From Spirogloea muscicola (Eukaryota; Streptophyta; Zygnematophyceae; Spirogloeales; Spirogloeaceae): DNA of 64,000 nt. The DNA lies in NCBI GenBank assembly GCA_009602725.1, contig WELB01000114.1, forward strand, positions 97,619-161,618, read 5' to 3'. The notes under the pieces are model-generated. The model ran no database searches. It was not told the origin of the DNA and saw only the letters and a program-made list of their open reading frames with translations. Shown here in pieces: positions 4,400 through 64,000 of the stretch. Made by a program: the position numbers and the translations under genes. The stretch's first letter is position 1. The number at the start of each line of letters is the position of its first letter.

Positions 4400-5640
4400 A
4401 TCCTGCTTTTTGCACCACCCGGCCCTTCCTTCGGGCTGGCGTCTCACAGCCACTGCTGTCAATTTGAAAGAGCTGTTTCTGATAGGCCAGCCCAAAGGAA
4501 TGTACAAGGTCAAGGGATGTACAAGTCCACCCGCTCCCGCCGCTACCATGGGGAGCCGGTGGACTTCCATGTTGCAGATTTGCTCGCACAGTTGTATCGA
4601 ATTCGCCTGTCCGTCTCGCTGTAGAGGTCCAGGGCTCGCGCATTGCAATTGCGTGCCGGTTGTGCCCTCGCTGCGGCCTCTGGCTCTGGCCTGGGGACCT
4701 GCTGCCAGGACGACTCCTTAGCAAGCAAGCAAGCGCGGCCAGATTAACTGGTGGCTGGGGTTATGTATTGACCCGTGGTTACTGAGCGGGTCAATCTGCT
4801 ATAGGTCATGTACGTTACGTGCTTGCCTTTGTACTTGGCCATTTGTCCTTCGTTTGTTTCAAATACACGTAAATTCTTAGCAGGGGTTACTAAGCTTCCC
4901 GTTGAGTCGTCTTGTGTTTAGCTTTGTCATTTTCTTGCAGGCATCAATTCTGGCTCTTTGGGTTTTGTCCATCCTCTTCGGGCTGGCTTGCTCTCTTGCC
5001 AGCCCCTCTTCTCTATGGGCGCAGCACATTCGCCCGCAAGAAAAGGGCTCGCCCTTTGAGGGTAGGGGCTGGAAAAGCCAGCCCAAAAATGAAGGAACAA
5101 GGGTAAACGAGGCCCGCAAGAAGCAAGCGCCGCCAGATTAACTGGTGGCTGGGAAGAAGTGGCTCTCCCAATGGGGGCAAGGGCTGTGACAAGCCAGCCC
5201 GAAAAGAATTGAGCTGGGAGAGGCCAGCCCAAAGGAATGGACAAGGTCTGAAGGAGCCGGAGTGCTAAGGACTGAGACAGCAGCAAGCGGACTCTCAGTA
5301 ACCTCTAGTCAGTACAAGCAAGTCTGAAGGAGTGAACGAGGCCCAAAAAAAGCTCCACCAGAACATCCAATAATCGTGAGTAGGCCAGCCCCAGGTTTCA
5401 GCTCCTCAGAAAGAAGAAGAAGTGGCCCTCCCAATGGGGGCAAGGGCTGTGAGAAGCCAGCCCGAAAAGAATTGACAAGGTTCGAAGGGGCCAAACTACG
5501 AGCTAAGCAGCGACTGCTGGGCCTGAAGAGGCTATGGCAGAACGGGGGAGGATGGACCACTTAGTAGTTACGAGTGAGGAGCCTCACATCCGACAGACTA
5601 GCTGCCGGTAAACTATCCCCCTCAGAAAGGGGCCCCGCGA
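4400..5640. repeat. Mosaic array of GGGCTGG-hairpin repeats
   Basis: Several units abut in both orientations. At 4728-4760 a GCAAGCGCGGCCAGATTAAC unit breaks off into a TTGACCC...GAGCGGGTCAA module. At 4905-5030 lies a diverged copy of the unit duplicated at 26016-26265, with hairpin GGGCTGGCTTGC...GCCAGCCC. At 5040-5115 is the reverse of the 27735-27895 unit. At 5120-5300 two units are spliced together (ACTGGTGGCTGGGAAGAAGTGG). At 5403-5610 is a long unit (TGGCTCTCCCAATGGGGGCA to CCGGTAAACTATC) that recurs at 27413-27700 and in part at 14866-15000. The stretch 5566-5590 is the uninterrupted empty site for the insertion at 27577. Confidence 0.7.
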
Positions 5641-5966: not shown

Positions 5967-8900
5967 ATGGCGGCCGGCTGCCCGGCAGCCGGCTGCACCG
6001 GCTCCGTGTACTCTGGACGAGTCCCCCGAGCTCGGCTTGGGAGCCCAGACTGGATACAGCGCAGAGCTGTGCCGGCCTTGGTGGCCTCCCGGCTTCCAGA
6101 GGGACTGCCGGTGTCGTTCAGAAGTTGGCGACGAGGGGGTAAGGCTCAGCGCACCTTGCTTACGCCTGGATCGTCACCATTGCACAGCAGGAATGCCTTG
6201 GAGTAGGTCGTGCGCTGCGAGGGCAGAGTGGTCAGAGCGCTGATGAGGTCAGGCGGGAATGGCGTTGCTCCATACGTCCGACTGACATCTGGAGCTCATG
6301 TCATTCTCCTCATTACGCCGTGTGACAGCACATGGCCAGGCGTAGTATGATAGCAGAGTGCTCTCGCTTGATGAGGGCTCTTGTCTTTCCTGGACGTCTG
6401 CTTGCTTATAGATTCCAGGACGCTGGGAGTCAGCGGTTTGACAGGTTGGATCGTAACAGCGCTGCTCTACCCCTGTTTGCATTCTTCAGCAGGAAGAGAG
6501 GCTCTGCTTGCTCCACATGCAACAGCTTCGCAAGAGAATCTTCAAGTGGGAACAAGCAACTTGTCGGGGGACTCTACACGCCAGCCTTTTGACGTCAATC
6601 TGGCTGTAGTCCTGGCTGGATTTGCCTTCGACGCTTACAACACACCGAAGGTTGTACCATTCGCTGGGGCAGTCGTTCTTTTGACTAGCCTGCGTGAAGT
6701 TTGAGCTTGATTGATGAGCCACACACTAGCAGATTGCAATAATCATAAATTTTTCGTCGTAAGATCATGTCTCATAGACATAATCTAGCAGCTCGGTACT
6801 GCAGGCAACAAACGGCGTGGCTGAATCAGATGAGCTGGGGAGCAGAGTCGACTATCTCTCCATGTATGTACAGTGGCATGCAATTCCTGCACTGCAAAGG
6901 TCTTCTCGTGACCATCGAGGGACACACAGGCTGGCATTTGACAGGCTTTTTGTGACCTGCTGATCCAGGACATCATGCATGTGAGGTGCACCCTCGTGGT
7001 TGCAGTACGCTTAGCAATGTTCAATATTAATGATCAGGTACAATGTGATCCAGGGGATTTGCGCAGGAGATATTTAACGGACAACTCTTGGTGAAGCTCA
7101 AGAGGGCATTCAGTTTCCCTGGTCTTGACTCCTGGGTGAGTCTGAAATTGAAGAGCAGCAGGACTATGTCCCTCTTATAAAAGTTGACTTAAACATGAAG
7201 CTCATAGATTTGTCTCTAAGAATGCGCGATCAGATTCCAGATTAATTGGTAGAAGCCCTCAGGTCATCATACTGCTAGTTCCTGAGCACAAGCAACTCGC
7301 TTGGCAGGGCACCAGTGACCCTTATGTTCGCCTCTGTTTAGGCAATGGTGTGATGAGAAGTCGCACAATCTGGCTGTGAGATGCGCTTTGGAATATGTAG
7401 ATCTCTTGAAGAAGTTTATGTTGTTATTTTAGAATGTATGTGTACCTGTGTTTGAGCAGTAGTAGTCTGAGCATCATGTTCCCATCTCATTGTGTGCCCC
7501 TGTGTGCTTGACTTGTGCTCTGTTTGTTTGCCTCATTCACAATCTTCATCTGTGCCCAGGACAAGGAACCCTGTCTGGAATGAGGAGCTTAGGCTTCTTG
7601 TTACAGATCCAGTCACTCAAGCATTGCAGGTAACGGAGTGCACGCTACAGACCTTTCTTCACAGATACTGTTCTGAAGGGGGTGTCAAGTGAATTGATAC
7701 TGAGCACCCACTTTCCTCTACTGGACGCGCAAAATGCACATTGCTCCTCTGCTTTCATGGCTCACCTTGATTATTGTATGCAATATGAAGAGCGATCATG
7801 CATTTCCTACACCAGCAGAGCAGTGTCAAGTAGAGATAAGCAGGCCATTTGTCCATCCTTTCACTGCCTCCTTGTCCTTACAATGTGAAAGAGTCTTAAT
7901 GAAGGTTTGCCTGTAGATTTCAGCTTGGGATGCGAATGTTGTGTTGGCTCACCGACCCATGGGCTCAACCTCTGTTCCCCTTCAGGATCTCTGTGATGGT
8001 GAGCATGTCCAACAGAAATTACACATAGGAGAGTCTCGCTGATGAAGTGACTATGCTCGGCTTCAAGTCCTACAGAAGTATGTTACACTGTCTACAATGG
8101 TCCCATTACCTGCTGAGCGAAGAAGATGCACGATCATGATAACAGCTTCTAGCCCTGGGCTTCCAGGAGGCGTGCATGACCTGGAGCTTCTGCTCACAGG
8201 GACAGGTGGGGGTGCTACGCTCCTTTTGCAGGTCAGAACCATAAGCTCAGACGGACTTTAGCCTTCTTGCTAAGTGCGCCCAGTCGTGATACGACCTGGG
8301 ATGTCATTACAGTAGCTCAATAGATTGCTCGTTCTATGCTCCTAAGAGGCTTTTGTGCTGTAATTGTGCTGTAGGTGTGCTTCCAAAGGTTCGAAGAGAT
8401 GACATCAGCAAGGCAAGGATGGCTATCGACGTTTCAACAGTATATTGCAGCTGGTAAAGCACTTGGAGACATGACTCCAGAGAGCGTGGTTAAGGCCTTC
8501 TCTGGATTGCAGGCTCTGAGTACCAGAACTTTTCTCCGCTCTGCTATTCAGGTAGCCATGCATCCTGCAACCTAAGTATAAGCAGTGACCCCTCACAGCT
8601 TGAAACGGCCATTGACACTTAGCACAGGCAGATACCAGTACTCCACTTACATAAGGCTCACATGTTTGGCGCTCTCTTTGCTATATCAGATCGCTGCTGA
8701 TCATTATTCAGTGCTGCCGAGCTGGGCAGGCATTTCGCAGCCCTGAGAGAGAGCAGGGCAATCAAAGCTCTTCCGAGTGTGGTGAAGCAGATGGGGCAAC
8801 TACAGCAAGCAGCTCTTCAAGCCGATTAGCACAGGATGTAACAAGACAGGCATTGGAGGGTGCTGCACCAAGCGTCAGTGAAGCAGGCAGTGGGGATGAC

Positions 8901-13639: not shown

Positions 13640-14604
13640 CGTCCAGTACTCGGGCATCAATTAGCGACCTCTACGTGCTGACTCGTTGTTACTAAGCGGA
13701 TCAGTTTAACAGCAGATGATGTATCATCTGTCCATGTCCTTGCCTTTGTACTTGGCTACTCAGGCCCTCCATCACTCAGTACACACGCCGTTCTTTCACA
13801 TTCATCAGCCCCCTCGGGAGGGACAATTTCCTTGCATTTAAGCCTCGTCCTCACCTGTTTGTCATGCGCTCATCCCTTCGCCAAGAGCCTTGGAACTGCA
13901 ATCTATTGTGTTGCTCTTTCCTGGCCGCTTCGAATTTTGTTCATTCTTCTCTTTAGGCTGGCGATGGCCCTCTACTGGCTACGGCCTCCGGCTTCCGTCA
14001 GGGCAACGTCTATCCGCCTGCTAGCTATTCCGACTTGCATCTACTGACTAGAGGTTACTGAGAGTCTCCTTGCTGCTGTCTTAGCACTTAGCAATCCGGC
14101 TCCTTCAGACCTTGTCCATTCCTTTGGGCTGGCCTCCCACAGCCACCAGTCAATGTGGCCGCGCTTTCTCCACTGGAAGTGTCTTTCTAGCGCCAAAGAG
14201 AGAAAGACCAAGAGGCCAAGAGGAATAGCCCTTCCAAAGTAACGCAATGCCTGTGAGAGAAAGATAGTGGCTCTCCCAAATGGAAAAATGTGTATCAAGT
14301 GATGGAGGGCCTGTGTGGCCAAGTACAAAGGCAAGCACATTGACAGGCCCCGCAGTCGCTGCTTAGCTCGTAGTTTGGCCCCTTCGAACCTTGTCAATTC
14401 TTTTTGGGCTGGCTTCTCACAGCCCTTGCCCTCATTGGGAGAGCCACTTCTTCATTGACAGATATACATCACCTGCTGCTAAGCTGACCCGCCCAGTAAG
14501 CACGAGTCAGCACATAGAGGTCGCTAACCGATGCCCGAACACCGGACGGCAACGGGCTGCGAGCCAAGCCCGCCGGCGGCGCCGCCGCCGCCGCCGCCGC
14601 CGNC

Positions 14605-27179: not shown

Positions 27180-27900
27180 GGTGGTAGAAAAGTGGTGGCT
27201 CCCAAAGGGGGCAAGGGAGGAATTTCGTGTATTTGAAACAAACGAAGGCCAAATGGCCAAGTACATCTTAAGACCTACATAACCTACAGTAGATTGACCC
27301 GCTCAGTAACCACCAATGGGGGCAAGGGCTGTGAGGAGCCAGCCCGAAAAATTTGACAAGGTTTGAAGGGGCCAAACTACGAGCTAAGCAGCGACTACGG
27401 GGCCTGAAGAAGAAGAAGAAGTGGCTCTCCCAATGGGGGCAAGGGCTGTGAGAAGCCAGCCCGAAAAGAATTGACAAGGTTCGAAGGGGCCAAACTACGA
27501 GCTAAGCAGCGACTGCGGGGCAAGAGGATATGGCAGAACGGGGGAGGATGGACCACTCAGTACTTATGAGTGAGGATTGTCCATTCTTTTGGGCTGGCCT
27601 CTCCCAGCCACCAGCTAATCTGGCCGCGCTTGCTTTCTTATGAGTGAGGAGCCTCAAATCCGACAGACTAGCTGCCGGTAAACTATCTCCATCCAGGCAT
27701 AGGGAACCTCAGCGGAGCCTAGCTTCTCTGACCTGAGGCTGCTTAGCAGGGGTTACTGAGTAACATGTAGCTGCTTTGTTTCTTGTTGTGCTTGTTTTCT
27801 TAGCGCTTCCCCTGGCCCCCTTCTCGTACTATGTTCATTCTGTTGGGCTGGCTTTTTCGAGCCCCTATCCTCCATGGGCGAGCCCTTCCCAAAGGTATAG
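27180..27900. repeat. Array of long hairpin-repeat units
   Basis: 27235-27310 holds the GACCCGCTCAGTAACCA module reversed. 27310-27412 and 27413-27700 are two copies of the AATGGGGGCAAGGGCTGTGA unit, with hairpin GGGCTGTGAGAAGCCAGCCC and AATTGACAAGGTTCGAAGGG. The second copy extends to CCGGTAAACTATC as at 5610. 27735-27895 is a unit running from GGGGTTACTGAGTAACATG to CCATGGGCGAGCCC; it recurs almost intact at 50095-50245 and reversed at 48605-48725. Confidence 0.8.
27577..27636 (-). mobile_element. 60-bp hairpin element inserted with a 14-bp target-site duplication
   Basis: The direct repeat CTTATGAGTGAGGA occurs at 27563-27576 and 27637-27650. Between them lie exactly 60 bases that match, on the minus strand, the unit GCAAGCGCGGCCAGATTA...GGCTGGGAGAGGCCAGCC...GAATGGACAA seen at 47322, 48066 and 48731. 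The host sequence is itself a repeat whose other copy (5566-5590) lacks the insert, giving an empty-site comparison. The element has two small stems (CCAG...CTGG and GGCTGG...CCAGCC) and no coding capacity. A constant GCGCTTGCTT end with a shortened opposite end resembles 5'-truncated, target-primed retroposition. Confidence 0.8.
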
Positions 27901-27999: not shown

Positions 28000-30900
28000 G
28001 ACCCCCCCCCCCGCGAGCTGGGCTCTCAAGAGATCGGAGGGCACAGGAAGGCCATCTCTTCGCATGTCCCTCAGTGGAGGAAGAAGCTAGCGCCGCCGTC
28101 GCAGCCGCCGGCAAGGGCTTGGCGCAGCGCAGGTTGACGCTCCGGGCCAGGTTGGTCAGGGGGCCGCAGCGGCGAGAGATCCATTGGCGGGGGTGACCAC
28201 GCAAGCGAGAGAGAGAGAGGCGAGGTGTGACTGCTTACGTGCGGAGAGATCGCAAGTGCTCCGAGACCCAGATCCAGATCTGCGGAGGGCGAGCGACGCG
28301 GCGGCAGCGGGACCGACGCATCGGGTGACCGAAGCTGGGACGCTGGATGCCAACCCCGGAGCGGCGCGCGCTACTCGCTGCCGTCGGCGGATCTGCAGCG
28401 GGACGAGGCAGATCTGCCGCCGGAGTCGTCGGACGACGGTGCTGCGGCCAGCGACAACGAGGGCAGCGCATCGTCTGACTTGAGCATGGATCGGGAGGTG
28501 GCGGTCGCGCGGCACGGCAGGAAGTATACGGTGAGGTCAGATGAGACCTCCCTGGCGAACCTCCGCATGAGAGTGGAGTTGGCCATGGCCCGAATGGAGA
28601 TGAACCCCCGATTCACGCGGTCAGTGGGCTTCAGGACCCTCCCAGACTTCTTGGATGGGCCCGCCTTGGATTTGAACGAGTCCGTTAGGGAGGAGGTTCT
28701 TGCCCTTACCGAGGAGGTTCCGGTGGGCGAGAGGCCAGGCAGCGGGGCGAGGCTGGTGGGAGGAGGGTCGGGTGCTGGCGCCCGAATGGCGGAGGACTAT
28801 GACGCAGCGGCAGAGGAGCTTATTGCGGGTCCATCGACGGAGGGAACCCTGGGGCTGGGGACGTCGGCCAAGCGGGTGCAGTTGCTGGCGGACCCCATCG
28901 GGTACTTCCTACAGATGCTCAGCAAGCAATTCAAGACCAACACGGCCGCCAAGGTGGCGGAGCTTGCGAACTTCCGGCGGCTGCTGGGAGAGGACGTAAT
29001 GGTCATGTCTCAACATATGAAACAGCTGCGCCGGGATACGGGCAGGCTGACAGAGGTAGATGCCGCGCAAAAGTTCTTGGAGGCGCTACTTCTAGTCGGC
29101 GGCAGAAAAGGGGCCTGGCTAGAGCAACAGGTCTTTGCGACCTTCCGCGACGACTTTACCGTGGACCAGGTGGCGGAGCTCGCGGACGACGTGGAGCGCC
29201 ACTTCGTGGGCAAGGTGGTGGATGTGGCGGTGCCGGCGAAGGGCGAAGCGAGGCCGGCTGCCCAGCCACGGCAGTGGCCAGGGACGCAGCCGAGACAGTG
29301 GCGGGTGCCCAGCAAGCAGAGCATGGCGGCGGCGGCGGTCGTACCAGCCGGGCCGGCGGGGCCGGTCGCTGCTTCACCTGCGGACAGCCGGGGCATGTCC
29401 GGCGGGACTGCCCACAGGGGGCCATCACGCAGTGTGCCCATTGCAACAAGTCGGGTCACAATGTCGACACCTGTTGAATTCTGCATCCCGAGCAGCGGCC
29501 GGCGCATCTGCAGGCCTATGGGGCGCCCCGGGCGGCCAGGAGCGCAGCCGCGGCACCAGCTGTGGCCCAGGCCAGCTCGTCCAGACGAGCTGGAGCTGCT
29601 CAAGGTGGAGGTGGCACAGATGAAGGCGACAATGACAGCCGCCGCCACAACGGCGCAGGCGGATCAGAGGCGTAGAGAGGAGGAAGAATCGGACCATCGC
29701 CTTTGCTACGGAATGGGTGTGGAGGTGGTTGATGCAGCAATGGCAGGGCGGCATGGGCGCAGCAGCCGCCAGCCTCCAGGGGTTGCAGATTGCTTGGCGG
29801 GTAGAGAGCACGGCCGCCGTGAGGAGCAGGGCGCGCGGTATCCATTGTCGTTTGCACGGTTGACGGAGGTGGCTGCAGACGGTCCAGCGGCAGTGAATGC
29901 GCAACCAGCGGTGGTCAGAGAGGACGTGGGGCAAGTCTCCGCGCGGCAGCTAGCGGCCGCACTCATGAGTACGCCCTTGCTGTTGTTGGCAAACGTGGGC
30001 TGCTCAGAGTTGGCGCTGAGGAAGGCGCTGCAGCAGCACCTTCCGGGTGTGCTGGAGGGCGACGTGGCGGGGTCGAGCGAATCACCCAAGGCCGCGCAGG
30101 GGGCGAAGTCCCCCACCGGCTTCAACAATCAATTAGGCGCTTCCGAAAGGGGCCCCTGCAGGTCGTCTCTATCTGAGCCTGCATGCACCCAATGATCGGG
30201 ATGGAGTGGGAGAAGTTCCTGCGGCAGTCCTGCATTCGGTGCCGGCGGCAGTGGCACAGTCGCATTCACCGAGCACTGGGGCCCTGGGGGCTGCCCATAC
30301 AAGGGGCAGCCGGGCGCTCAAGGCTGCGCGGGGGGCGGACACCCCGACCACCTACAGCGACAATTCAGGAGCTTCCGAAAGGGGCCCCTGCAGGTCGATT
30401 CCACCCCTTCTGCCTGCGCTGGCATCTTTGGGTGAGGATTCGGTGGCAGCGGAGCAGCAACCAAGCACTCGTGCCGTTGGGGCGGCCCTTGCAAGGGGGA
30501 GCCCGTCGCTGCCTAAGCGGCGGGTGTCTGAGCGAGTGGGGATCACCCCCGATGTGGCTTTGCTGGATAACAGCCGCAGCCTTATCACCTTCAATGGCGC
30601 GGCGCCGCAACGGGTGATGCTCGATATGGGGGCCCAGCCGGTGCTGCTCGGCCTCAGCATGGCGCGGCAGCTGGGGCTGCGCGCGCAGGACTTGCAGCCG
30701 TCCCCCATCGCCATAAAGACGGCAACAGGAGGCGTCTCGGTGGGCCTGTGCCAGACCAAGGAGCCTATCTGCATCACCATCAACAAGGGTGGTCCGGATG
30801 AAATCAACCAGCACCTTCGCTGCTTGCTCACAGAGGCTACTTCCTACGACGTGCTCCTTGGGACGGAGTTTTTGTACCCGTGCAGGGCGAGTATCGACCT

Positions 30901-31850
30901 ATGGGAAGAGGTGGGGAGATATCGCCCCGGGGGTGCGTGCGGAGAGGGGCATCAGGTGGAGTTCCCACTGCAGGTGATAGCTGCAGCGGAGGATGGGGCC
31001 GCATTCGCTTGCTACGGAGAAGCGGCATGGGTGGGTAGCGAAACGTGTGACATGCCGCAGGACGAGGCAGCCACCACGTCACTGGCGCCCGTGCGGTTGG
31101 GAGCAGCTGGCGCTGGCCATAGGCCCGTGGTGCAAGCGAGGCAGGTGGAAGAGCTGGTGGACCGTGCGTGGAAGCAGCTGCCCCTGGTGGCGCAGGAGCT
31201 GCCAACGTGTCCGCCGGTGGTTGTTCAGCTGCACAGAGAGCCGCTGGTGGATAGCACGGTCACTGAGTGGGCGATCCCAGACGGTGTGGTCGTTTTAGTG
31301 GAGTTCTTTGCTGGCATCGCCACCGGGCTGGCGGCGGTGCTGGCCAACAGCGGGCGCGTCAAGCAGTACGTGTGTGTCGACCCAGATCCGGTGGCGCAGG
31401 CGGCAGCAGCGCACCACATCCGGCGGCTGATGGACCAGTACCCGGAGCTGCTGATCCCGGAGGCCATCAAGGGGTACCTCACCACCCTGCCGGCCGACAT
31501 CCAGCTGGTGGGCCCACACCACCTGAGGGGGTTGGGCAGGTGGACCTGGTGGTTGCAGGTTGGGAGTGCCAAGGGCATTCCAGCGCTGGTGCAGGCCGAG
31601 GTTGGCTGACCACCGCTCGCGACTCTTTTGGAAGCTGGAGCGTGTTTTGGCGCTGCTGCAGGGGGGGCTGCAGGGGGAGCTGCTGCAGGGGGAGCTGCCT
31701 GCACCCACCTCTTGCTGAGGTGCCGGCGGGGCAGTGGTTCTGCCCGCGCTGCGCATAGCGCTGTCATGGTTAGGATGCTTGACCCTCAGAGGATGCGGCT
31801 GCCTCAGGTCCAGGCAGCTGGGGGGGGGGGTGTGGTGACTCTTCTGCCAC
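28000..31850 (+). mobile_element. Broken Ty3/gypsy-like retroelement with methyltransferase-like and PHD-like regions
   Basis: A retroelement fossil. Parts in order: a Gag-like region at about 28450-29350; CCHC zinc knuckles near 29360-29480 (CFTCGQPGHVRRDCP and CAHCNKSGH); a retropepsin-like region at about 30540-30910 (VMLDMGAQPVLLG, YDVLLGTEFL); a region at about 31290-31600 resembling cytosine-5 methyltransferases (VLVEFFAGIATGLAAVL, then CVDPDP); and near 31700-31760 a segment like the end of a PHD finger (PAGQWFCPRC). I see no reverse transcriptase, integrase or matching terminal repeats in the window, so the element is incomplete. It is broken, with at least a few breaks. Retrotransposon-borne cytosine methyltransferases are known from charophytes and dinoflagellates, which fits this host. 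The outer limits are estimates. Confidence 0.75.
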
Positions 31851-44907: not shown

Positions 44908-46350
44908 TCAGGCCATGATCGCCTCCAAGCTGCCACCAAGGAGCTCCACGGTGTCATCGTCGCTGGCGCCGCCGGCAGCATCGATGCCGCAGTCACCAAG
45001 GAGGCAGAGGTCGTCAATATTGTCGATGAAGTGAAGCGAGTCGGCGGCGCCGGGCGCGAGGCCCAGCTCCAGGAGGAGATCATCAACTGCGCCGCTGCCA
45101 CCCAAGCCGAAGCCACCCATGCTGCCGGGCTCGAGCCACGGGACCTGCGGGAAAGTGTGCCACGACGGCAGCAAGCCCTCGCCGGCGTCCTCGGTGAGGC
45201 TCGACCGATCTGACAAGTCCGGCTGCAACGGCGGCGCCTTCCTGTCCATGTTGGCTGCAACCGCCACCCCCTCTGCCTTTACCGTGGGCCCAGTCACAGC
45301 AGGCTTGCCACAGGTGGCCACCACCGCCGATGTTGCTGCCGCTTTCTCCACACGCAGCTTCTTGGCCAGCGGCCCGCGCCGGTGCTTGGAGCTGGCCAGC
45401 CGCTGCTTGAGCAGCTCATCGCCATCGACATAGTAGGGCGCCGGTGAAGCTAGCGGCTGGCTGCCCACCGTCGGCAACGCGGCACTCACACATGAGGCCG
45501 CGCTGACCGCCCTGTCTGCCTCAAGTGGGCTGGTGACCAGCACGCAGGCACCGAAGCCGCTGCCAGGAGGCGGCGACAACGACGACGTCGACGGCAGTAG
45601 CCCCGCAGCCTCAGACCCCGCCGCTGTGGCCATTGGGAAGTTGCACTTGGCGAGGGTGCCGCGGATAGAGCGCGCCGCAGCATCGTAGGCGCGCGCCGCC
45701 TCCTCTGCAGAGTCGTATGTGCCCAGCCACACGCGCACGCCCTCGCGGGGGTCCCGGATCTCGGCAGCCCACTTGCCCCAAGGCCGCTGCCGGACACCCC
45801 GGTACGCCGCCGCAGAGCCGGCAAGCGGGCTGCCGCCAGCACCGCCGCGGCGCTTCTGACCAATCACTGAGAGGTAGCCGCCCAGAACGCCAAGGCCGCC
45901 GCCGCGCTCTGGCGATGGCGATGGCGAGGACGACGACGACGGCCAGTCCTCGCTGCTGCCGCTGCCATCGTCTGCAGCATTTTTCCGAAAAGCCAACAGT
46001 CAGTGTGCGACGGGCTGAGGAATTGAACAGGCGTGCCAAGGGCGGCAGCATTCCTTGGAAAAACCAACAGCTGGAGTGCGACGGGCTGAGGAAAAGAACA
46101 GGCGTGCCAACGGTGGCAGCAGCTGCGGCGCCGATGCAGCTGGCTACCGGCGCGAGCCCCGATGCACTCGCTTGGCGGCGATGGCAAGCACCGCTGCGTC
46201 CGCGCTGGTCCGGCGTGGCTCACCGCGCTCGCTGCCGCTGGCGTCGCTGAAGAGGAACGGCGGCCCCGGCGGCCGCGGGCCGTCGAGAGGCCCGTGGCGG
46301 CCGCCGGGCAGCAGCAACGACGGTAGCGCGGCGGCACCGCCGCCGCCGCC
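44908..46350 (-). CDS. AP2/ERF-domain transcription factor, 5' end lost in a gap
   Basis: A DNA-binding transcription factor of the ERF group, which binds GCC-box-like sites. The main exon is 45971-44908 (stop TGA). An upstream exon, 46350-46224, ends at a GTGAGC donor in the matching phase (GSER then [10 protein letters not shown]), so the start codon should lie in or beyond the unsequenced stretch 46351-46690. The AP2 domain begins [18 protein letters not shown] and continues [20 protein letters not shown]. Ala and Asp at the two diagnostic positions (WAAEIRD) mark the ERF rather than DREB group. After the domain come a Ser/Pro-rich region, a basic patch ([15 protein letters not shown]) and an acidic, Leu-rich C-terminus ([26 protein letters not shown]), probably an activation domain. 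No in-frame ATG precedes the domain in the main exon, which supports the two-exon model. Confidence 0.88.
45991..46118. repeat. 71-bp tandem duplication in the ERF intron
   Basis: CCAACAG...GTGCGACGGGCTGAGG...ACAGGCGTGCCAA occurs twice, at about 45993-46045 and 46064-46116, with a period near 71 bases. The duplicated block covers the sequence leading to the 3' splice site, whose GCAGCATT context also recurs (45976 and 46047). Confidence 0.8.
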
Positions 46351-46690: not shown

Positions 46691-47321
46691 GGGGGGGGTG
46701 TGGGAATAGTACTTCTGCGGGGCAGCAGCTGGGGTGGTGCTGCTGGGGGGAGGGAGGGCCGCGCCCGAAGGGAGGGAAGGCAGGGGCAGGGACGGAGGAA
46801 GGAGCCTCGTGGGGCAGCGACCAGGAAATGTAATATTGTGCTCTGAGGGAGGGAGGAAAAGGGAAGGGGGACTTCTTGGGCGAGGGCCGCAGCGGGCTGC
46901 GGGGAGGGAGGGAGGAGGGAGGGAGGGCGCCCGGAGCTTGGGGTTCCCACGGGGCCCCTCACCTCGCAGCGCGGCGGATCGGCGCCGTCGGTTGGCCCCC
47001 GGGGGGCACACCTCGGGGTGTGGATTTGGGGTGTCAAACTACCCCTCCCACTGCCCGAAGGCCTGCCTGCCGTCCGATGTGCAACATCTGAGTGGGTGGC
47101 TTACGACGGACGGCGGAAGAGAAGAGCACAAACCCCCCCCCGTCCCCGGACAGACTGGCCCGAGGGGCCCCCTCCTACCGGGGGATCGAGCCGCTGCCAG
47201 CCGTCCGATCGGGAGACGGCCAATCCCTTGCGCCGGTGCGGCCGCGGGGATCGAATCCGGGCCCCAGCTGCGTCGCTCGGTCGCCCGGCTTTTGGGGGCT
47301 CCGCTGCTCGGCCCCACAGAG
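46691..47321. other. G-rich flank of the gap, no gene seen
   Basis: 46700-46960 is dominated by GGGAGGGAGG-type sequence. 46990-47310 is GC-rich with runs of C and G (ACCCCCCCCCGTCCCC) and no recognisable coding region. GGATCGAATCCGGGCCCC at 47249 resembles a tRNA B box, but no tRNA fold surrounds it. Confidence 0.5.
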
Positions 47322-47440
47322 AGCAAGCGCGGCCAGATTAACTGGTGGCTGGGAGAGGCCAGCCCAAAAGAATGGACAAGGTCTGAAGGAGTCGGAGTGC
47401 TAAGGACTGAGACAGCAGTAAGCGAACTCTCAGCGGTCGG
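47322..47440 (-). repeat. Near full-length hairpin element
   Basis: It contains GCAAGCGCGGCCAGATTAAC, hairpin GGCTGGGAGAGGCCAGCC, AAAAGAATGGACAAGGTCTG, and then GCTAAGGACTGAGACAGCAG up to ACTCTCAG. Its first 60 bases match the insertion at 27577. Strand follows the orientation used for that insertion. Confidence 0.8.
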
Positions 47441-48065: not shown

Positions 48066-48150
48066 TTGCAAGCGCGGCCAGATTAACTGGTGGCTGGGAG
48101 AGGCCAGCCCAAAAGAATGGACAAGGCCTGAAGGAGTCGGAGTGCTAAGG
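48066..48150 (-). repeat. Hairpin element copy, truncated
   Basis: The same start (GCAAGCGCGGCCAGATTAAC) and hairpin as at 47322, ending after AGTCGGAGTGCTAAGG. It is followed at once by the inverted repeat at 48157-48187 (arms TCTCGTTTCACCA, 13 bp, 5-base loop). Confidence 0.8.
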
Positions 48151-48604
48151 TCGGAGTCTCGTTTCACCACGTCCTGGTGAAACGAGAGCGACAAGAAGTG
48201 GCGTGTATGCCAATCGATGCATGAAAAGAGCTGGATCAAATCCGTGAGCCCGCAGCATGGTCGCTGCAGCAAGAGGAAAAGAGTTGAAGTGGAGGGCTAC
48301 TCCAGTGCAGGCTTGTGGAGGACGGTCGTCCAATCTCTACAACTGCCCCGCATTTCTTACTTTTGTGGGCTGGCGTCTCTCATCCCTCGCCCCCTTTGGA
48401 AGGACTATTTGGGCTGGCCTAAGATACAGCTCTTCAATGTAAGGCAATGGCTTTGAGAGGCCCTTAGGAGTCAGAAAGCGTAGTCACTCAGAATGCAAAA
48501 CATCATTGAGAATGACAAATCACTTCCTTTTCTTTCATAACATCGCACCGATAGGACGCCAAATAGTGCTGTGAGGCAGGGGGCCTAATATTTCGAAAGA
48601 CTTA

Positions 48605-48890
48605 GTCACTCAGAGAAGAGGAGAAGGGCTCGCCCATTGAGGATAGGGGCTGGAAAAAGCCAGCCCAGAAAAGAATGAACAAAGGACGAGAAGGGGCCAG
48701 GGGAAGTACGAAAACAACAAGCACAGAAAGAAGCAAGCGCGGCCAGATTAACTGGTGGCTGGGAGAGGCCAGCCCAAAAGAATGGACAAGGTCTGAAGGA
48801 GTCGGAGTGCTAAGGACTGAGACAGCAGTAAGCGAACTCTCAGTAACCTCTCGTCAGTAGATGCAAATCTGAGTAGCTAGCAAAGAAACG
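48605..48890. repeat. Two adjacent hairpin elements
   Basis: 48605-48725 is the reverse of the 27735-27895 unit (GGATAGGGGCTGGAAAAAGC, CAGCCCAGAAAAGAATGAAC). 48731-48885 is the longest GCAAGCGCGG-type copy, reaching CAGTAACCTCTCGTCAGTAG, that is, the TTACTGAG head seen from the other strand. Confidence 0.8.
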
Positions 48891-61990: not shown

Positions 61991-64000
61991 ATGGCGAGCA
62001 CTTTCTTTTCGGCCCTTTCGGCCAGCTCCTCTTCTCTGTTGAATTTCCTGGGCTGGCCGCTCCTGTATCTGCTCCTGTACCTGTTCCTGTCTGTTGTAGT
62101 CAGTGTTCTCAGATTGTTCCTTCCGCCAGTCGAAGTCCTCCATCGGACGTTTGCCCTTGTCTATGGGCCCAGCAGACCGCCCTCGACGCGGCGGCACAGA
62201 AGCAGATGCGCTCATGGCGCCAGACAGATTCAGATCTCAGACAGTCAGTCAGTCTGACAGCACAGGCTCCGCCCTCACCCAAGGTGGGTGGCAGCCATGG
62301 CTAGGGCGCACGGGCGCACCGCGTGGCCTCAGATATATGGGAGGTGTTCCGATGGGTGGCCGAGGCCTCCCTTATCCAGGGGAGACTCTCACGGCCCAAT
62401 TAGACGGTCGGGATGGTCACCCACCCCGACCCGCCGATTCACCATATTTCTATCTTCAACACTCCCACTAAATATGTGAATCAGCCAGACCTAGCAAACT
62501 TCTACATCTATCATACTTGGGCTTAGGCAAGCCCTTGGTCAGAATATCTGCAGTCATATCTGCTGTACTACAGTACTGCATCTTGATGACTCCCTCGTCT
62601 ACCTTCTCTCGGATGAAATGATGTTGTATCTCTATATGCTTAGTACGAGCATGATAGACAGGATTCTTAATCAAAGCAATGCTACCTTGACTATCACTGA
62701 ACAAAGTGGTTGCACTCGATGAAGAAAGGAATCCACATTCTTGTAGTAGTCTCCTCAGCCAGGTTGCTTCTTTTGCTGCTGCAGTCGTTGCCATGTACTC
62801 CGCTTCTACAGTTGAAGTCGCCACAGTCTGCTGTTTCCTACTACTCCAACTGACTGCTCCTGCTCCCAACTCAAAGGCATAACCTGTTACTGACCTTCTA
62901 TCATCCAGACTGCCTGCCCAGTCGGCATCACAGAATCCTACCAGTTCATCAGATTTATCTCCTGAATTTCTAAACGTCAAGCACAGATTCTTGCTTCCCT
63001 GCAGATATCGCATGATCCTCTTGACAGCTTGCCAATGTTCACAACCAGGATCTTGCACAAACTGAGCAACCACTCCCACTGCTGCTGCTATGTCTGGACG
63101 TGCTGCCACAGCTATGTACATTAAACATCCCACTGCCTCCCTATAAGGCACCTGTGCCATCTTTTGTCTGTCTTGATTTGTCTTGGGTCCCTGATTTTTG
63201 CTCAAAGTCTGTTTTGTATCCTGTGGAGTAGAGATAGGATTGCAGTCTTGCATACCAAATCTGTCCAAGACTTCAGTTATGTACTTTGATGAACTCAAGG
63301 TCAATATCTTCCTGCTTCTATCTCTCTTGACCTGGATACCCAAAAAGTACTCCAAGGGCCCAAGATCCTTCATCTTGAATCTACTACTCAGCTCTTGCTT
63401 TACTCTTTTCACTTCAGTAGCTGAGTCTCCCAGTAAAATCAGATCATCAACATACAGTGCCAGAACCACTTTAGCAGGTTTCTTCCTCACATACACGCTG
63501 TGGTCAGCCTCAGATCTCTTGAAACCTTGGTTCACTAGAAAAGTATCAATCTGTGCATACCAGGCCCTGGGCGCCTGTTTAAGTCCATACAGTGCTTTCT
63601 TCAGCTTGCACACTTTACTCTCCTTGCCTTTGACCTCAAAACCTGCAGGCTGTTGCATGTAGATCTCTTCCTCAAGATCGCCATTCAAGAACGCTGTGGT
63701 GACGTCCATCTGTTCTACTTCTAAATCATGAATAGCTGCCATAGCCAGCAAACTTCTGACAGCACTATTTTTAACCACTGGAGCAAATGTCTCGTTGTAA
63801 TCAATCCCTTCCTTCTGAGCACAACCTTTGGCCACAAGGCGTGCTTTATATCGATCTACAGACCCATCGCCCTTCAGTTTGATCTTGAACACCCATTTGC
63901 TGGGGATCGCTTTCCTGCCAGCAGGTAACTCTACCAAATCCCAAGTTTTGTTCTCCTTGATAGAATCTAGTTCTGCTTCTGCTGCTGCTTTCCACTTGAG
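61988..64000 (-). mobile_element. Copia (Ty1) retrotransposon: pol 3' part and LTR, cut by the window end
   Basis: The minus-strand frame 64000-62468 encodes the reverse transcriptase and RNase H end of a Copia polyprotein: WVFKIKLKGDGSVDRYKARL, EQMDVTTAFLNGDLEEEIYM, LKKALYGLKQAPRAWY, LALYVDDLIL (YVDD core), CDADWAGSLDDRRSVTGYAF and VEAEYMA. The visible part looks whole and continues past the edge. A purine run (GTGGGAG) at the stop is followed by TGTTGAAGATAG at 62461, the probable start of the 3' LTR, which extends to roughly 62220. Beyond it a further frame (62215-61988) starts at a TGGCGCCATGAG site that resembles a primer-binding region. This may be a second, truncated internal region sharing the LTR, but it is uncertain. 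Low visible decay suggests a fairly young insertion. Confidence 0.88.

Follow-up and report, generated by a model that had tools for sequence, protein, structure and literature searches.

The insert and its host repeat

The window, by which we mean the whole 64,000-nucleotide stretch of Spirogloea muscicola DNA analyzed here, carries a 60-bp insert at 27577–27636 on the plus strand. The insert is bounded on both sides by identical 14-bp copies of CTTATGAGTGAGGA (27563–27576 and 27637–27650, plus strand), which form its target-site duplication; a first-pass annotation of this DNA had reported a 14-base direct repeat around exactly 60 bases, and both the perfect repeat and the spacing were borne out. 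This 14-mer is found at three exact places in the 153-Mb genome, two of which are the flanks of the insert. From genome matches, and from longer copies that run on into the 3′UTR and ORF of a LINE, the insert is a 5′-truncated, 3′-terminal piece of an element that we call LINE family A. Three parts were placed within it on the plus strand: hairpin 1 of the 3′ module (GGCTGG…CCAGCC, 27592–27609), given by the fold of a family A sequence and with its pairs kept in aligned copies; hairpin 2 (CCAG-loop-CTGG, 27611–27623), given by the same fold and the aligned copies; and a constant 3′ terminus, GCGCTTGCTTT (27626–27636), defined by comparison of family A copies, among which the last bases differ (CT, CTC, CTT, CTTT, and others).

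Elsewhere in the window, the ORF at 62468–63937 (minus strand) has a strong match to RVT_2 (E = 2.3e-81), the domain that serves as reverse transcriptase in Copia-type LTR retrotransposons. The ORF at 30206–31609 (plus strand) matches aspartyl proteases (PF13650, E = 3e-7; PF13975, E = 1.1e-6), is preceded by a 571-aa ORF at 28480–30195 without a Pfam match, and perhaps belongs to an LTR retrotransposon. The ORF at 44908–45996 (minus strand) contains an AP2 domain (E = 1.4e-14) and is likely a host gene.

The repeat that received the insert looks like the ORF end and 3′UTR of a sister LINE, family B, into which a family A tail was inserted. Minus-strand translation gives putative C-terminal codons of a family B ORF, DSLPAASLSDLRLLT, at 27651–27690, and the insertion splits this ORF end such that its last codons fall within the 14-bp duplication. 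Positions 27520–27562 (minus strand) would be part of the family B 3′UTR. Downstream of the stop codon, a by-eye comparison with family B contexts places a probable family B 3′ module at 27444–27490 (minus strand), in which the hairpin GGGCTGGCTTCTCACAGCCC (GGGCTGG…CAGCCC) lies 3′ of the host ORF end. Read on the minus strand, the host ending DSLPAASLSDVRLLTRNY plus stop parallels the family A ending DVFPPASYSDLHLLTRGY plus stop, and one extracted locus (L010) has an ORF end resembling that of the host and, 101 bp beyond it, a module of family B.

An uninterrupted paralogue of the host lies within the window at 5526–5623 (minus strand), where it reads DSLPAASLSDVRLLTRNY plus stop with 93% identity across the join, confirming an empty copy that had been noted at 5566–5590. 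When the joined flanks, 27520–27562 included, were searched against the genome, matches spanned the insertion point at 40 of the 40 places scored among 1,868 first-look candidates, 5526–5623 being one of them. Among extracted loci, 34 matches were flagged as spanning the join; the insertion-side flank, which is not an empty site, accounts for one of them and 5526–5623 for another, and at least two pairs stem from overlapping loci. Because the host repeat is continuous at the insertion point elsewhere, the 14-bp duplication was most likely created together with the insertion and is no part of the host repeat.

Relation of the insert to LINE family A

Searching the genome with the 60-mer, with 40 of 786 first-look candidates scored, gave 45 matches, of which 40 were full length (60/60 bases) at 98–100% identity, the window's own copy included. 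Three further copies lie between 47 and 49 kb of the window on the minus strand. The 60-mer matches them at 97–98% identity (47318–47379, 48068–48124, and 48731–48789), in keeping with the first-pass annotation, but as units they are longer than 60 bases, with lengths from the anchor of about 110 bp (47324–47433), 88 bp (48069–48156), and 149 bp (48734–48882). A very short copy of about 30 bp, for which no duplication was found, is present at 4730–4759 (minus strand), and a family A-like LINE end at 13966–14169 (plus strand) combines an ORF C-terminus (13966–14058; tblastn 84% over 31 aa) with a diverged 3′ module (14112–14169; 88% over 58 bases). Beyond the window, family A copies are scattered across many contigs.

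Upstream of the 60-mer, the longer family A copies stay collinear to differing points. The copy in L010 has 161 to 377 bp in common with eight other copies at 97.6–99.6% identity, and the shared sequence extends back through a 3′UTR into an ORF ending LLTRGY. A protein search with the C-terminus of this ORF yielded 150 scored matches, the best 23 of which were 100% identical over all 85 aa, and some of the matches sit in long open frames. In two loci (L079 and L085), the frame is open for 585 codons up to the start of the locus, carries the YADD box of a reverse transcriptase near its upstream end, and ends at a stop just before the 3′UTR. RVT_1 was matched in the locus directly upstream of L085 (L111, E = 4.5e-5) and in a sister element (L013, E = 1.9e-6), with scores of 23.7 and 28.2 bits that both fall under the Pfam curated cut-off of 29.6 bits, which we count against the LINE reading. 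A genome search with the reverse transcriptase as query produced 1,154 candidates, of which about 150 were scored; some of the frames found are 2,600–4,500 aa long, and many places with 78% identity are about 1,150–1,430 aa.

Thirty loci (L061–L090) were chosen by the C-terminal protein alone. In 23 of them an exact copy of the family A 16-mer follows within 160 bp, whereas 3 have a similar 3′ end and 4 have none. Since these loci were chosen without the tail, the link between ORF and tail is independent of tail-based picking. The family A 3′ end is shared with an element encoding a reverse transcriptase. Setting the constant end against the 3′ termini of resident LINEs, a check put forward in the first-pass annotation, gave a match. 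Judged by its sequence, the family A element is a LINE.

Copy lengths and target-site duplications

The 3′-terminal 16-mer of family A occurs at 1,423 exact places in the genome (690 + 733), compared with 0 for the reversed control. From 100 of these places that were listed, we read 54 copies regardless of their 5′ extent. Their lengths range from 17 to 700 bp with a median of 100.5 bp and no 60-bp class (two copies reach the locus end and one stops at an N, making these three lower bounds); the shortest are 17, 21, 24, 31, 31, 33, 33, 34, 39, 47, 55, 55, 60, 65, 65, 66, and 71 bp. Lengths of 60 bp or less were found in 13 copies, 50–70 bp in 6, and 55–62 bp in 3. Family A copies break at many positions on the 5′ side and have the 3′ end in common, and the pattern of one constant end (GCGCTTGCTT) and one variable end that had been described for a few copies was seen again in 138 unique copies, all picked by the exact 16-mer of that constant end. 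A discrete unit length and a non-LINE 5′ head are features of SINEs; here, lengths are continuous (n = 54), and the longer copies compared have no such head, their shared upstream sequence being LINE 3′UTR and ORF. By eye, no common foreign head was noticed among the 138 listed copies, and tRNA and Rfam scans of the window gave no match. Genome-wide word counts with at most one mismatch drop toward the 5′ side, from 3,674 for the 3′-terminal 16-mer to 1,262 and 768 (reversed controls 0, 14, and 3), but a hairpin word lying between the counted words is found at 7,565 places and is presumably common to other families, so that the counts give no clean truncation curve.

The 149 anchored copies included 138 unique ones, of which 108 were tested for duplications, the other 30 being dropped for touching a locus end, an N in the flank, a short flank, or a length more than 25 off the reference. 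We found that 40 of the 108 copies reached a duplication score of at least 7, compared with 2.1% of 2,137 re-paired flanks, and that 17 reached at least 9, compared with 0.5%. A narrower search gave 28/108 versus 0.8% and 12/108 versus 0.1% at the same two thresholds; relative to it, the wider search raised matches and control alike. The duplication of the window's 60-mer is among the 4 of 108 that score at least 14, a value reached by 0 of the 2,137 re-paired flanks. The remaining 68 copies score below 7, whether through age, deletions, blurred ends, or lack of a duplication, and we count them against the reading as LINE truncation.

In the 40 copies scoring at least 7, the duplications are variable in length, from 7 to 21 bp. 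Short copies are among those with a duplication: copies of 23, 31, 47, and 60 bp (the last in L025) carry 9, 8, 11, and 14 duplicated bases, of which 1, 3, 0, and 4, respectively, also match the element. Other short copies (17, 21, 21, and 30 bp) have no duplication. The duplications start with a pyrimidine in 85% of the 40 copies (52% in flanks) and have T as their second base in 55% (23% in flanks), a bias that may come partly from overlap with the element's own CTT tail. In 26 of the 40, a count without a control of its own, the duplication extends at least one base into the 5′ end of the element, a pattern consistent with microhomology where the 5′ end was joined.

The hairpin-bearing 3′ module

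A similar block recurs in at least four families of tail (A–D) and comprises a TTGTYMATTCTTTT-like run, hairpin 1, a second part specific to each family, and a tail rich in CTT. The hairpin pairs are kept in 43–45 of the 45 family A copies aligned (of 111 found), although these copies were picked by GGCTGG…AGCC and most of hairpin 1 was thus fixed by the choice of copies. For this reason, covariation is uninformative on the MAFFT alignments, which took 45 of 111 copies of family A, 45 of 75 of B, 42 of 42 of C, and 41 of 41 of D, while 331 of the 600 contexts fell into no class and were excluded. The two small stems that were first described in the 60-mer do fold as stated, but the stability of a folded family A sequence does not exceed that of its shuffles (z = –0.99), which we count against the reading as LINE truncation, and the tails of families B (–0.92) and E (–0.94) likewise do not go beyond shuffles. 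The tails of families C (z = –2.50) and D (z = –4.29) are stable through an outer stem.

In families C and D, this outer stem pairs GTYCAT with ATGGGC around hairpin 1; the corresponding arms in family B are GTCAAT and ATTGGG. One outer-stem pair differs between families, A-U in place of C-G. Shuffles within families gave the outer stem no convincing support, with the observed score reached in 20 (B), 486 (C), and 189 (D) of 500, in a test made poor by misplacement of the 5′ arm in most C rows.

We also recorded the first module within 420 bp of the ORF C-terminus at loci that were all chosen via family A sequences and at which the downstream module may be a separate insertion: for C-termini with at least 85% identity (n = 30) it was A in 19, D in 1, another in 7, and none in 3; at 60–85% (n = 58), A in 5, B in 10, C in 1, D in 10, another in 17, and none in 15; and below 60% (n = 28), A in 5, B in 3, C in 2, D in 3, another in 6, and none in 9. 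These counts suggest that each tail family may be paired with its own ORF. Passages in PMC3747384 describe structured tails as recognition elements in other LINEs, and we infer that the hairpin-bearing 3′ module of these several sister families is such an element.

Discussion

The insert records genuine retroposition, with a clean empty site and an ordinary mechanism. The retroposition proposed earlier, with a 3′ end that stays constant while the 5′ end varies, a duplicated target site, and an empty copy of the host, is supported by the copy listing, the duplications, and the uninterrupted hosts. We put the probability at roughly 0.93 that the 60-mer is an extremely 5′-truncated copy of LINE family A resulting from target-primed reverse transcription. 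Most likely, then, the 60-base insert is not a new kind of mobile element. The suggestion of an undescribed mobile system is left unsupported, the 60-mer being a LINE 3′ end, and so is the description of the element as smaller than ordinary SINEs, 60 bp being one point in a continuous range of lengths.

In the mechanism that we propose, the LINE protein would nick the target DNA, and the freed target 3′ end would prime reverse transcription at the 3′ end of the RNA (…GCGCUUGCUU); the pyrimidine-rich starts of the duplications hint that the target 3′ end may pair with the –CUU of the RNA. The reverse transcriptase would stop once it had copied about 60 nt, the second strand would be cut 14 bp away, and gap filling would produce the 14-bp duplication. 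PMC3747384 and PMC7650587 treat it as established that LINEs lose 5′ sequence when reverse transcription is incomplete, and the former gives a range of 100 to 1,000 bp for truncated members. Family A resembles such copies in its constant 3′ end, variable 5′ end, variable-length duplications, and reverse transcriptase ORF in longer copies, but its products are rather short (median about 100 bp, 13/54 at 60 bp or less). Target-primed reverse transcription in this genome seems often to halt within 20–100 nt and yet to complete integration with a duplication. The shortness of many family A copies is the only mildly surprising aspect. The 60-bp "element" that stood out is what an aborted insertion of a LINE left behind, and a false lead is removed. 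Thousands of copies make template recognition and early termination open to statistical study, and sister LINE families with similar hairpin-bearing 3′ ends are at hand.

We think it very unlikely that the 60-mer instead represents an ultra-short, SINE-like retroposon in its own right, about 60 nt long, that is transcribed into its own RNA and moved in trans by LINE machinery. A LINE 3′ end with hairpins might suffice for recognition, and 6 of the 54 sampled copies do measure 50–70 bp, but the length distribution has no visible peak at 60 bp (3/54 at 55–62 bp), the longer copies are collinear into LINE sequence, and inspection of the 138 copies revealed no shared foreign head. The same long odds apply to a variant in which, besides truncation, free RNA of the ~60-nt hairpin module arises by synthesis or processing and is mobilized in trans, with the several LINE families that have such a module perhaps cross-mobilizing it; if true, this would be an exceptionally small retroposon. 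SINEs with a borrowed LINE tail, whose stringent type is treated in PMC3747384, are among the nearest known systems. The likeness lies in a short element ending in hairpin-bearing LINE 3′ sequence; unlike these, family A has no non-LINE head in the longer copies compared and no discrete length.

Even less probable, in our view, is an account in which the host repeat duplicated 14 bp internally and a LINE fragment, the 60-mer, was brought in through recombination or end-joining. In its favor, nested repeats form a dense patchwork in this region, but the host repeat is unbroken at the insertion point in all 40 scored places, the end of the insert coincides with the 3′ terminus of the LINE, and other copies of the family also have flanking duplications. 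We give next to no credence to a DNA transposon of the MITE-like hairpin kind: inverted repeats do occur within the 60-mer, but no terminal ones were seen in it by eye, and such an element is contradicted by the variable end and by duplications that vary from 7 to 21 bp in the 40 copies of score at least 7.

Returning to family A as a LINE, its C-terminal ORF sequence contains, by eye, a CxC…H…C cluster and a D-x(n)-D pattern, read against the C-terminal zinc knuckle and PD-(D/E)XK-like endonuclease of R2-type, restriction-like-endonuclease LINEs; these patterns suggest that the family A endonuclease may be of that type. Pfam gave no endonuclease match at E up to 1. An N-terminal APE endonuclease was sought through PF03372, which has 10 places in the genome; by eye, the 10 kb of same-strand sequence upstream of each listed reverse transcriptase place contains none of them, in a comparison that took in about 150 scored of the 1,154 candidates. 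In the PDB, R2 retrotransposon proteins give the best sequence matches, but these are weak (E = 0.024), and unrelated proteins come close to them (one enzyme at E = 0.062). The likeness of family A to R2-like LINEs consists of these matches and the C-terminal motif patterns. R2-like LINEs include some at dispersed sites, such as the non-site-specific elements of the German cockroach (PMC7650587). The dispersal of family A copies over many contigs is a point of difference from the R2-like group. In three loci (L071, L045, and L021), family A copies apparently lie inside antisense family A at about the same place (…GTGCTAAGG/ACTGAG…, by eye), hinting at a possible preferred target in family A's own sequence.
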